DNA from: Leptolyngbyaceae cyanobacterium M33_DOE_097
Lineage (GTDB): Bacteria; Cyanobacteriota; Cyanobacteriia; Leptolyngbyales; Leptolyngbyaceae
Direction of reading: 5' to 3'
Assembly: GCA_015296075.1 (NCBI GenBank)
Contig: DVDV01000315.1
Location: forward strand, 1 to 51,805
Length of the DNA: 51,805 nucleotides
Positions 16,845 to 19,681 of the stretch are shown piece by piece. Position 1 is the stretch's first letter; every line of letters begins with the position of its first letter. The notes beneath the pieces were generated by a model. The model had not been told where the DNA came from. It saw only the letters and a program-made list of their open reading frames with translations, and ran no database searches. The position numbers and the translations under genes are program-made.

Positions 16845-17822
16845 TTAGGACTTTTGCTCAGGCTGAAATTCGGTGTACTTGCCACCCAGGTTTTCGACGA
16901 TTGCCTTCGTATTCGAAACCATCATTTTGATGTAGGTGTCGCCTGCACTACCGGGTGCGCCAATCGAGTCAGAGTAAAGCTGAGTTTCAGCTAATTTGAC
17001 CTTTGCTTCTTCCGCCACGGTGGAAATTAAACGTGGATTAATCGTTGTCTCGGCAAAGATAGTGGGGACTCCGAGTTTTTTAATGGATTCTGCCAGTTGG
17101 CTGACGGTTTGGGCGCTGGGTTGTTCTTCGGTGCTGATCCCAATCAGGGTGCCAACGACTTCTAAACCGTAGGTTTTGGCATAATACTGAAACGCGTCGT
17201 GGGTGGTGATTAGCCGCCGTTGTGATGCAGGAATTGTTTGAATTTGCTCCGTAATCCAGCGATCGAGTTGGCGCAATTCCTGGATGTATTGCTCGGCATT
17301 TTTGGTAAACCGTTCGCGGTGTTCGGGTGCCAGTTGAATTAACTCATCTCGCAGGCGCTCCACCATTTGGATCGTGTTTTGAACGCTGCCCCAAACGTGG
17401 GGGTCGGGCACCTTACCCTGCTGCTCTTTCTCTAGCTCTAAGGGGGTGACGACTTCGCCCACCGCAACTTTCCGCGCTTTGCCCCCAATCGAATTCATCA
17501 TGCGAATCAGGTTGGGTTCAAGGTTGTAGCCGTTGTAGAGAATCAGGTCGGCGGTTTCTAGAGCGCGACTGTCAGCGGGAACAGGTTCATAAATATGCGG
17601 GTCGTCGCCGGGGTTCAGAATGCCAGTCAGGTCAACTGTGTCTTCAGCGATTTGCTCCGTCCAGTCAGCGATCATGGTGCTGGTTGAGACAACATTGGGT
17701 TTGTCGTCGTTGTCTGTCTGAGAATTTTGAGGTGACTGGCAACCGCTTAACCAAACACCCGCCAGCAGGATTGCGACCGTAGCCCAACGGTTGAGCCGAG
17801 ACTGATAAGCCCATACACTCAT
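16845..17822 (-). CDS. mntC: Metal ABC transporter substrate-binding lipoprotein, probably Mn(II) (MntC)
   Basis: This is a cluster A-I solute-binding protein, lipidated at C28 (LSGC lipobox after a hydrophobic signal peptide) and held at the outer face of the plasma membrane. The four metal ligands of the family are visible: H76 (DDPHIYEP), H142 (DPHVWG), E258 (IFAETT) and D285 (LYSDSIG). The absence of the His-rich loop typical of ZnuA favours manganese. It delivers Mn to the MntAB permease, needed for the photosystem II Mn cluster. The gene is divergent from mntA, unlike the collinear mntCAB operon of Synechocystis; the shared intergenic region carries phased repeats. Confidence 0.88.
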   Translation of the reverse strand: MSVWAYQSRLNRWATVAILLAGVWLSGCQSPQNSQTDNDDKPNVVSTSTMIADWTEQIAEDTVDLTGILNPGDDPHIYEPVPADSRALETADLILYNGYNLEPNLIRMMNSIGGKARKVAVGEVVTPLELEKEQQGKVPDPHVWGSVQNTIQMVERLRDELIQLAPEHRERFTKNAEQYIQELRQLDRWITEQIQTIPASQRRLITTHDAFQYYAKTYGLEVVGTLIGISTEEQPSAQTVSQLAESIKKLGVPTIFAETTINPRLISTVAEEAKVKLAETQLYSDSIGAPGSAGDTYIKMMVSNTKAIVENLGGKYTEFQPEQKS

Positions 17823-17833
17823 GACCTGTACCC

Positions 17834-17888
17834 TTTCATTTTCATTTCATTTTTAGGCTACAATACTTTCATAATTGTTTCATTTTCT
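17834..17888. promoter_or_regulatory. Phased TTTCAT direct-repeat operator between mntC and mntAB
   Basis: Four 11-bp units beginning with TTTCAT start at 17834, 17845, 17867 and 17878. The unit between the pairs (17856-17866, GGCTACAATAC) lacks the hexamer but keeps the phase and includes TACAAT, a possible -10 box. An extra out-of-phase TTTCAT starts at 17840. Direct repeats one helical turn apart are typical sites for OmpR/PhoB-family response regulators. Cyanobacterial Mn uptake genes are repressed by such a regulator, ManR, through the ManS kinase. That this is the ManR site is inference. Confidence 0.65.
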
Positions 17889-17998
17889 ATTCCTATTGAT
17901 CACTTCCTAAATAGGGATGGATTTTGCCGTTAAAGGCATCACGCTAGGGTTAGCCTGGTCGCCTTGAACTGGTTGTGACTGAGCCAAAGGAGTCTTGT

Positions 17999-18739
17999 AT
18001 GTCGGCGAATGCAGCGATCGCGGTCGAGTATCTAAATGTGAATTATCGAAGTGTGCAGGCACTCCGAAACATTAACTTTGCGATTGAACCGGGGCAGTTA
18101 ATTGGCGTGTTTGGCCCCAATGGCGCGGGTAAAAGCACTCTGGTAAAGGCGATGTTGGGGTTGATTCCAGTAGTGACGGGCAAGGTTTATTTTGGCGATC
18201 GTCCCCTGACAGCCCAACTTGACCGGACAGCCTATGTGCCGCAGCGATCGCAGATTGATTGGACATTTCCCGCTACAGTTTGGGATGTCGTGCTGATGGG
18301 TCGCGTGCAAAAAACGGGGTGGTTTAATCGGTTTTCGGCAACCAGCAAGCGAGTCGCTGCCGAAGCCTTAGAGCGCGTGGGCATGGCTGAGTTTTGCGAT
18401 CGCCGGATTGGGGCGCTTTCGGGTGGTCAGCAACAACGGGTCTTTTTGGCGCGGGCGTTGGCGCAAGAAGCGGACTTTTTCTTCTTTGATGAGCCGTTTG
18501 TTGGGGTCGATCAAAAGACCGAAGAAATTCTATTTCGGATTTTTGGCGAACTGGCGGATGCAGGAAAAACGGTGATGGTAGTGAACCACGATCTAGGGGA
18601 GTCTACAACAAACTTTGATCGGCTGTTGCTGCTCAATCGTGAGTTGATTGCAATTGGCACGCCTGAACAGGTATTTACCACTGAGAACATGACGCGTGCT
18701 TACGGTGGGCATGTTAATTTCTTCTCGGCGGCGGCTTAA
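17999..18739 (+). CDS. mntA: Metal (Mn) ABC transporter ATP-binding protein MntA
   Basis: This is the nucleotide-binding subunit of the Mn importer. It shows Walker A GPNGAGKST (39-47), Q-loop PQRSQIDW, signature LSGGQQQR (about 139-146), Walker B with DEP (164-166) and the switch His in VVNHD. The ATG at 17999 is chosen because AAAGGAG lies 6 bp upstream; an in-frame GTG at 17975 would put that site inside the gene. mntB follows after 42 bp. Length (246) is standard. Confidence 0.92.
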   Translation: MSANAAIAVEYLNVNYRSVQALRNINFAIEPGQLIGVFGPNGAGKSTLVKAMLGLIPVVTGKVYFGDRPLTAQLDRTAYVPQRSQIDWTFPATVWDVVLMGRVQKTGWFNRFSATSKRVAAEALERVGMAEFCDRRIGALSGGQQQRVFLARALAQEADFFFFDEPFVGVDQKTEEILFRIFGELADAGKTVMVVNHDLGESTTNFDRLLLLNRELIAIGTPEQVFTTENMTRAYGGHVNFFSAAA

Positions 18740-18781: not shown

Positions 18782-19681
18782 ATGTTGGATTGGTTACTTG
18801 AGCCTTTGCAGTACGCCTTCATGCAGCGATCGCTGGTGGTGGCGATTACCGTTGGCATTATTTGCTCGGTCGTGGGTAGCTATTTGATGGTGCAGCGCTT
18901 AGCGTTGTTGGGGGATGCCATTAGCCATTCGCTCTTACCAGGTTTGGCGATCGCCTTTGCGATAGGTGCCAACATTTTTGTCGGTGCCTTTATTGCAGGT
19001 GTGATTAGCACGGTCATCATCGCCTGGATTCATACGCGATCGCCGATAAAAGAAGATGCTGCAATGGGCATCGTTTTTTCTGCCTTTTTTGCGTTGGGCG
19101 TTACTCTGATTACCGTTATCCAAAAAGATAACAAGATTGATCTCAACCACTTTCTATTTGGCAATATTTTAGGCGTCACCTCCGAAGAAGTGCGTGATAC
19201 GGCCATCATTGCTGTGCTTGTGCTTTTAAGCGTCTTTCTTTTGTACAAAGAACTGTTATTTTATAGCTTCGATAGTTTAGGCGCACAGGCCGCAGGGTTG
19301 CCAGTCCATCTGCTCAACTCTGGGTTGATGATTTTGATTGCATTGACCGTTGTTGCCAGCATGAAAGCGGTTGGAGTTATTTTAGTGCTGTCATTGTTGA
19401 TTACGCCGGGGGCGACAGCTTACCTGCTCGTGCCGCGCCTGCACCAGGTCATGTTGCTGGGGGCTGCGATTGGGGTTGTGTCGAGTGTGAGTGGTATGTA
19501 TCTCAGCTATTACTTCAACTTGCCTTCAGGCCCGGCGATTGTGCTGGTTGTCTCAACCCTCTTTTCCCTGGCGTTTTTGCTGAGTCCGACTTATGGAATT
19601 TTGACCAATCCCCAGGCGCGATCGCAAGACAGTTCACCCTTGTTGCGTGAAATTAGAAGCCTGTTTAAGCGAGGCACTTAG
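18782..19681 (+). CDS. mntB: Metal (Mn) ABC transporter permease MntB
   Basis: This 299-residue integral membrane protein of the ABC-3 family has about eight or nine hydrophobic helices and forms the channel of the Mn importer. Family markers include LLGDAISHSLLPGLA near residue 43 and the LLITPGATAYLL segment near 220. It directly follows mntA and is presumably cotranscribed. Confidence 0.92.
   Translation: MLDWLLEPLQYAFMQRSLVVAITVGIICSVVGSYLMVQRLALLGDAISHSLLPGLAIAFAIGANIFVGAFIAGVISTVIIAWIHTRSPIKEDAAMGIVFSAFFALGVTLITVIQKDNKIDLNHFLFGNILGVTSEEVRDTAIIAVLVLLSVFLLYKELLFYSFDSLGAQAAGLPVHLLNSGLMILIALTVVASMKAVGVILVLSLLITPGATAYLLVPRLHQVMLLGAAIGVVSSVSGMYLSYYFNLPSGPAIVLVVSTLFSLAFLLSPTYGILTNPQARSQDSSPLLREIRSLFKRGT

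Follow-up and report, generated by a model that had tools for sequence, protein, structure and literature searches.

Paired TTTCAT repeats bracketing a −10-like element between divergent manganese-type transporter genes of a cyanobacterium: a probable double operator for ManR

In photosynthesis, the cluster that splits water is limited by how much manganese is supplied. What, then, is the function of a set of evenly phased repeats lying between two divergent, apparently manganese-related transport genes in a cyanobacterium, and which regulator might read them? The locus is found in a 51,805-nucleotide stretch of DNA from Leptolyngbyaceae cyanobacterium M33_DOE_097 (contig DVDV01000315.1), here called the window. 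An initial annotation of this stretch proposed that two regulator dimers flank a promoter and act on both neighboring genes at once. We examined the element, its relatives in the same order and class, and the regulators that may bind it.

RESULTS

Structure of the element and its flanking genes

The element occupies 55 bp (17834 to 17888), with TTTCAT at 17834, 17845, 17867, and 17878 in 11-bp steps. It lies in the intergenic region (17823 to 17998) between an mntC-like and an mntA-like gene, which diverge as the initial annotation stated. The features are as follows.

16845 to 17822, minus strand: mntC-like metal-binding lipoprotein gene, PsaA/TroA type
17834 to 17854, plus strand: site 1, two 11-bp units, TTTCATTTTCA TTTCATTTTT, including an out-of-register TTTCAT at 17840
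from 17834: unit 1, TTTCATTTTCA
from 17845: unit 2, TTTCATTTTTA
from 17856: middle unit, GGCTACAATAC, containing TACAAT (17859 to 17864)
17859 to 17864, plus strand: −10-like TACAAT for rightward mntAB, 8 bp after site 1
17860 to 17865, minus strand: overlapping −10-like TATTGT for leftward mntC, which with TACAAT makes TACAATA, of the form TANNNTA
17867 to 17887, plus strand: site 2, two 11-bp units, TTTCATAATTG TTTCATTTTC
from 17867: unit 4 position, TTTCATAATTG
from 17878: unit 5 position, TTTCATTTTCT
17999 to 18739, plus strand: mntA-like ABC ATPase gene, with its ATG at 17999
18782 to 19681, plus strand: mntB-like ABC permease gene

The coordinates bear out two descriptions in the initial annotation, namely, four TTTCAT-headed 11-mers in exact 11-bp register over 55 bp and a missing middle unit that holds a −10-like TACAAT. 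The fifth TTTCAT, at 17840, is out of this register and was absent from that annotation. The element is made up of two sites, each of two 11-bp units, with the form TTTCATWWTYY-TTTCATTWTY, and site 1 starts 11 bp from the mntC start codon. The pair TTTCAT-N5-TTTCAT had two matches in the window, both within the element, versus a mean of 0.01 in 100 dinucleotide shuffles, none of which contained two. The four-unit pattern, with up to three mismatches, matched once in the window and in 0 of 100 shuffles. Across the whole genome of the window (6.96 Mb), the pair had five matches, compared with two for a reversed control.

We then asked how the flanking transporter relates to the known MntCAB of Synechocystis. 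The window's binding protein scored 170 bits against 4utp, a PsaA-type manganese lipoprotein, versus 140 bits against 4irm, the Synechocystis MntC, so its closest match was not MntC (4irm, 1xvl); the collinear-type MntC of a same-order genome (L244) scored 371 bits against 4irm. These scores place the window's transporter outside the orthologues of Synechocystis MntCAB, and its divergent layout is therefore not a rearranged mntCAB. The contrast that the initial annotation drew with the collinear Synechocystis operon thus sets non-orthologous operons side by side. The collinear mntCAB operons of same-order genomes bear the same TTTCAT site. For the three transport proteins, no shown NCBIfam family scored above its curated cutoff (25 of 187 families shown for the ATPase); manganese as the substrate is therefore what we infer from the protein family and the regulon described below.

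Conservation in same-order relatives

A match at an E value of 1e-30, paralogues included, was present in 41 of 42 same-order genomes. Besides that of the window, 29 loci (L007 to L035, the best per genome) were inspected for layout and repeats. Seven of them (L007, L009, L010, L012, L017, L020, and L024; 58 to 68% identity) are divergent and have at least two TTTCAT pairs, with one-mismatch or extra units among the pairs of L009, L017, and L024. Eleven further divergent loci (L025 to L035; 44 to 51% identity) had no exact TTTCAT pair in their intergenic regions, which instead bear a ATGATAATGATTCTCATT-like element that we take to be Fur-like. These loci, from other genera of the order, share related genes and the divergent layout with the window but not the exact pair, and a regulator swap is possible. 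In the remaining 11 loci, the flank retrieved with mntC showed no adjacent mntA; L014 among them has a TTTCAT pair, and in the stretch examined, the other 10 had no exact pair at mntC. In the comparison of relatives, a check proposed by the initial annotation, the repeats are kept in many relatives that carry these genes, and the pair is absent from L025 to L035. Joint control of mntC and mntAB by the element is plausible, although the 10 loci with no exact pair at mntC speak against it.

Single sites adjoin a small set of gene families

The single-site pattern TTTCATWWTNNTTTCAT had 126 matches, distributed over 42 of 42 same-order genomes (that of the window included), versus one control match. 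The fetched loci contained 124 sites distinct by their 100-bp flanks, and merging those with identical 12-bp flanks left 119. As many as 109 of these adjoin seven gene groups, 106 placed by script and 3 by hand (L062, L063, and L065, the second sites of mntAB pairs), and 10 matched no target family. The target families were picked after the first neighbors had been seen, and 109/119 is therefore a measure of concentration in few families rather than a blind prediction. The script-placed sites adjoin hmx1/2 (n = 34), window-type mntA and/or mntC (n = 27), mntH (n = 19), collinear mntC (n = 14), M48 peptidase genes (n = 6), VWA genes (n = 4), and multicopper oxidase genes (n = 2). Genes of the hmx, mntH, or manganese-type ABC kind account for 97 of the 109 assigned sites. 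Pfam backs the GDT1, Cu-oxidase, M48, and VWA identities of the neighbors.

Positions 17 to 20 after the pair start, which were not selected by the search, repeat the unit tail, with T at position 17 in 81% and at position 19 in 98% of 106 sites. The sites thus have two direct half-sites 11 bp apart with the full unit repeated, an organization of the OmpR/PhoB type.

Several of the neighbors deserve separate mention. At hmx1/hmx2, which encode half-size manganese exchangers of the GDT1 family (L005:1526-2346 and many same-order genomes), we found a single TTTCAT pair, in most cases no more than 30 bp from the start of the longest open reading frame (ORF). Hmx1/2 transcripts of Synechocystis 6803 are reported to be unaltered by manganese excess, and in Synechocystis salina, none of the three site matches was placed at hmx. 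The M48 (HtpX-like) peptidase gene has the site 43 to 61 bp before its start (L215/L257, L266, and L268), and the gene for a small VWA-domain protein has a doubled pair 19 to 78 bp upstream (L058 and L240). A multicopper oxidase gene with a site is followed by a ZIP-like transporter gene (L001:1528-3017 and L261:2813-5049); the product of the latter falls just under the Pfam cutoff for ZIP (34 versus 35.1 bits). The two may form a pair for manganese oxidation and uptake.

Three TTTCAT pairs surround the start of one psbA-like gene (L066/L392; G262:C522:762-1988), and one of the three lies within the longest ORF. The D1 product of this gene differs at most ligands of the manganese cluster, with E, H, S, and L at what we take to be D1 positions 170, 189, 333, and 342. 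Four sister D1 variants and 25 other psbA genes (one family) had no pair within 500 bp upstream, and we therefore regard this gene as a single case.

Double sites across the class

The double pair was found in 78 of 388 genomes of the class, and the reversed control gave no matches. All of its places were retrieved, that of G024 being L007. We scored 86 occurrences (L036 to L120), two of which were duplicates, and tallied the neighbors of the 84 distinct loci by hand. Sixty-eight adjoin a manganese-type ABC transporter: 52 of these are divergent mntC/mntAB loci (the window being one), 11 have mntAB without an adjacent mntC, 1 has mntC alone, and 4 have collinear mntC. Ten loci adjoin multicopper oxidase genes and three adjoin mntH; the last three are a VWA gene, the atypical psbA, and a tandem-repeat artifact. 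The artifact (L038/L120) is a tandem repeat of TTTCATTATAA, beside which no target gene was found; a microsatellite origin was rejected for all other double pairs. The suggestion that the repeats should be sought before other manganese genes was well placed, as they do recur there. Inverted double sites also occur, with one pair per strand 45 to 47 bp apart, before mntCAB or mntH (L231/L234, L236, L245, L274, and L275).

The exact register seen in the window, where all four units follow an 11-bp step and the sites are 33 bp apart, is not general, as inter-site steps of 27, 30, 33 to 37, 41 to 46, and 48 bp occur. They group around 34 and 44 bp, values that differ by roughly one helical turn. 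A representative step of 33 to 36 or 42 to 46 bp was found in 27 of 30 genera, with 27, 30, and 48 bp in the others; the rule for picking representatives hid single steps of 37 and 41 bp. The Rayleigh statistic was 0.64 over the 30 genera, a value reached by none of 5,000 random draws, and 0.68 for the medians of 15 family classes split by hand at 39 bp (P = 0.0019 versus uniform). Both spacing classes occur in several families. Periods from 9.5 to 11.5 gave similar values (0.58 to 0.67), so the steps fit any period in this range about equally well.

The core promoter between the sites

A simple sigma-70 scan of the element gave no promoter having both hexamers, and TACAAT is therefore a −10 without a recognizable −35. 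The −10-like motifs of the two strands overlap as TACAATA (17859 to 17865). For comparison, we used 37 spacers, one to three per genus, picked from 65 manganese-transporter loci. Forward −10 matches (at least four of six positions) were present in 31 of the 37, a narrow excess over shuffles (mean, 20.1; maximum, 29). By hand count, 28 of the 37 spacers had their best such match 7 to 12 bp past site 1, with both spacing classes represented. Of the 37 relatives' spacers, 20 had the form TA[CT][AC][ACT]T, chosen post hoc, at 6 to 13 bp past site 1, compared with 2.6 in shuffled ones. Reverse −10 matches at the same threshold were found in 27 of 37 spacers, inside the shuffled range (mean, 20.6; maximum, 30); because they do not exceed the shuffles, they slightly lowered the probability that we give to our reading.

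The symmetric form TANNNTA was present in 24 of 37 spacers, versus a mean of 6.2 and a maximum of 14 in 2,000 shuffles. It was equally common in loci without a divergent mntC (5/7) and in divergent ones (19/30), so the symmetry is not specific to divergent loci, and shared use of the −10 is therefore something we infer. The idea that two dimers flank a promoter holds insofar as paired sites bracket a −10-like element; the exact register of all four units that accompanied it is not general.

Link to ManR

According to the available text of two reviews and two papers, phosphorylated ManR represses mntCAB of Synechocystis 6803 at sufficient manganese. In the same partial sources, mntCAB is the specific microarray target of ManR, with effects on futABC, exbBD, and tonA seen later by RT-qPCR, and ManS/ManR is described as the only reliably identified manganese regulator of cyanobacteria. 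We found no TTTCAT site printed for ManR in the literature searched, a result of little weight, as the primary ManR paper was outside the search.

In a scan of collinear-type MntC loci (the best 80 among the matches listed, 31 cyanobacterial and 49 others), a pair with at most one mismatch was present within 450 bp upstream of the MntC match in 24 of the 31 cyanobacterial loci (13 exact) versus 0 of the 49 others. The pattern TTTCATNNTNNTYTCAT has three matches in the whole genome of S. salina, a relative of strain 6803, and two of them form a double site before mntCAB, the operon that ManR represses in strain 6803. The third (L424:1501-1517) is located immediately past a kinase gene, itself preceded by a gene for an RppA-like regulator.

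Among 10 OmpR-type regulators of S. salina, only L362 fits the cysteine spacing of ManR (64/152/228, compared with the published 64/154/230), and it was called ManR by this pattern and by elimination. Two other candidates were rejected: L127, considered for its neighboring kinase, has a Synechocystis counterpart (L355) with other cysteines, and L123 matches Rre28 by length and cysteine. Both L127 and L132 are near universal in the order, and presence therefore cannot separate these candidates. The genome of the window has a ManR orthologue (G000:C138:5542-6240), the reciprocal best match to L362 at 59% identity. Of the 42 genomes of the order, 40 had such an orthologue and all 42 had the site. 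Across the class, in genome lists entered by hand, the site was present in 240 and absent from 56 genomes with a ManR match (E value, 1e-66), versus 19 and 73 without one (P about 5e-26). One family, with ManR absent in 64 of 64 genomes and the site absent in 63 of 64, drives most of this co-occurrence, and without it, P is 0.048. Outside this family, the site also occurs in 18 genomes that lack a ManR match at this threshold.

DISCUSSION

The element appears to be a real regulatory site, and the initial interpretation of it was nearly right. Most likely, to judge by these comparisons of sequence, it is a double ManR operator and one of a large conserved family. We think it probable that the 55 bp form a double operator for ManR, of the OmpR/PhoB family, which brackets a nearly symmetric −10 and allows the shared core to be shut at sufficient manganese. 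Each site would bind one ManR dimer head to tail. Site 1 would cover the −35 region of the mntAB promoter, and site 2 would cover its predicted start at about 17871; a leftward start for mntC from the reverse −10 is predicted at about 17853, with site 1 immediately downstream of it. At sufficient manganese, phosphorylated ManR would fill both sites, aided by a preferred rotational phase, and exclude RNA polymerase from the shared core. At low manganese, its release would allow mntC and mntAB to be made together. Which protein binds, whether it represses or activates, where the two transcripts start, and whether binding is cooperative are all predictions here.

Chance or a simple AT-rich repeat has a negligible probability: apart from the tandem repeat of TTTCATTATAA with no target gene beside it, which fits such an origin, it is ruled out by the 126 matches versus 1 control match, the association of 109 of 119 sites with few gene families, and the result of 0/100 shuffles. 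We also consider it very improbable that the motif acts in RNA, with ATGAAA repeats just before start codons tuning translation. The reverse complement of the pair, ATGAAA-N5-ATGAAA, is in most cases no more than 30 bp from where the longest ORF of hmx1 starts, and often so for mntH, the multicopper oxidase gene, and mntC. Before mntAB, however, the site has the other orientation and lies 9 to 305 bp upstream, and collinear mntC genes are preceded by sites in either orientation and by inverted double sites.

The other two alternatives keep the DNA site but change who reads it or with what effect. Another OmpR/PhoB-family regulator, for example, an RppA-like paralogue of ManR, might read the same 11-bp repeats. 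The genome of the window has 23 Trans_reg_C matches, including paralogues 48 to 50% identical to ManR, and such a reader would fit both the 18 genomes in which a site but no ManR match was found and the location of the third S. salina match, near the gene for an RppA-like regulator. We nevertheless regard it as quite unlikely, given that the double site of S. salina precedes mntCAB, the ManR target of strain 6803 in the partial sources cited above, and that the ManR orthologue and the site are found in 40/42 and 42/42 same-order genomes. OmpR-family regulators often activate from −35-type positions, and site 1 could in the same way activate mntAB, with site 2 or other positions repressing. The missing −35 and the distance of 7 to 12 bp from site 1 to the best forward −10 match in 28 of 37 spacers speak for this two-sided action. 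Available review text calls ManR a repressor of Synechocystis mntCAB, however, and for the majority of hmx, mntH, and divergent mntC genes, the start codon is close to the site, a placement suited to blocking; we judge two-sided action to be fairly unlikely.

With ManR as repressor retained as the preferred reading, the sites suggest that the targets of ManR extend beyond the single operon generally assigned to it. A stronger version, which we put forward only tentatively and hold to be somewhat doubtful, is that ManR rules a class-wide manganese regulon and, at mntC/mntAB, clamps one symmetric −10 with two helically phased dimers, switching both strands. This regulon would comprise two non-orthologous ABC importers, an NRAMP transporter, GDT1 exchangers, the multicopper oxidase-ZIP pair, and the M48 peptidase. 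With a site recognizable in sequence, this regulator and its specific target mntCAB are widened into a testable regulon, and manganese control is predicted, in other lineages, for the Hmx exchangers called constitutive in Synechocystis. The element also offers a compact model for the switching of divergent genes from one core promoter.

Comparison with known systems

The closest known system is the ManR-repressed mntCAB promoter of Synechocystis. In S. salina, the same repeat is present as a double site directly before mntC, and the regulators are orthologous. The differences are that the Synechocystis operon is collinear with a true MntC, whereas the window has a PsaA/TroA-type transporter in a divergent layout, and that in the window's order, single sites also mark hmx, mntH, multicopper oxidase, M48 peptidase, and VWA genes. 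The PHO box of PhoB and the PmrA box are tandem repeats of 11-bp half-sites of the OmpR/PhoB family, bound by a dimer head to tail. The window's element is like them in its tandem 11-bp half-sites, whereas the half-site (TTTCAT) and the signal differ and, unlike in those boxes, two double-unit sites bracket one −10. In bidirectional promoters, the A(−11) of each strand can be paired with the T(−7) of the other (PMC10268837 and PMC12825309, available text), and the start points of symmetric ones are usually 18 bp apart (PMC10268837, available text). The starts at 17871 and 17853 in the window are likewise 18 bp apart, although they are predicted, and TANNNTA also occurs in nondivergent loci. 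Compared with these systems, what would be new is a regulon of this breadth and a symmetric core bracketed by the two sites.
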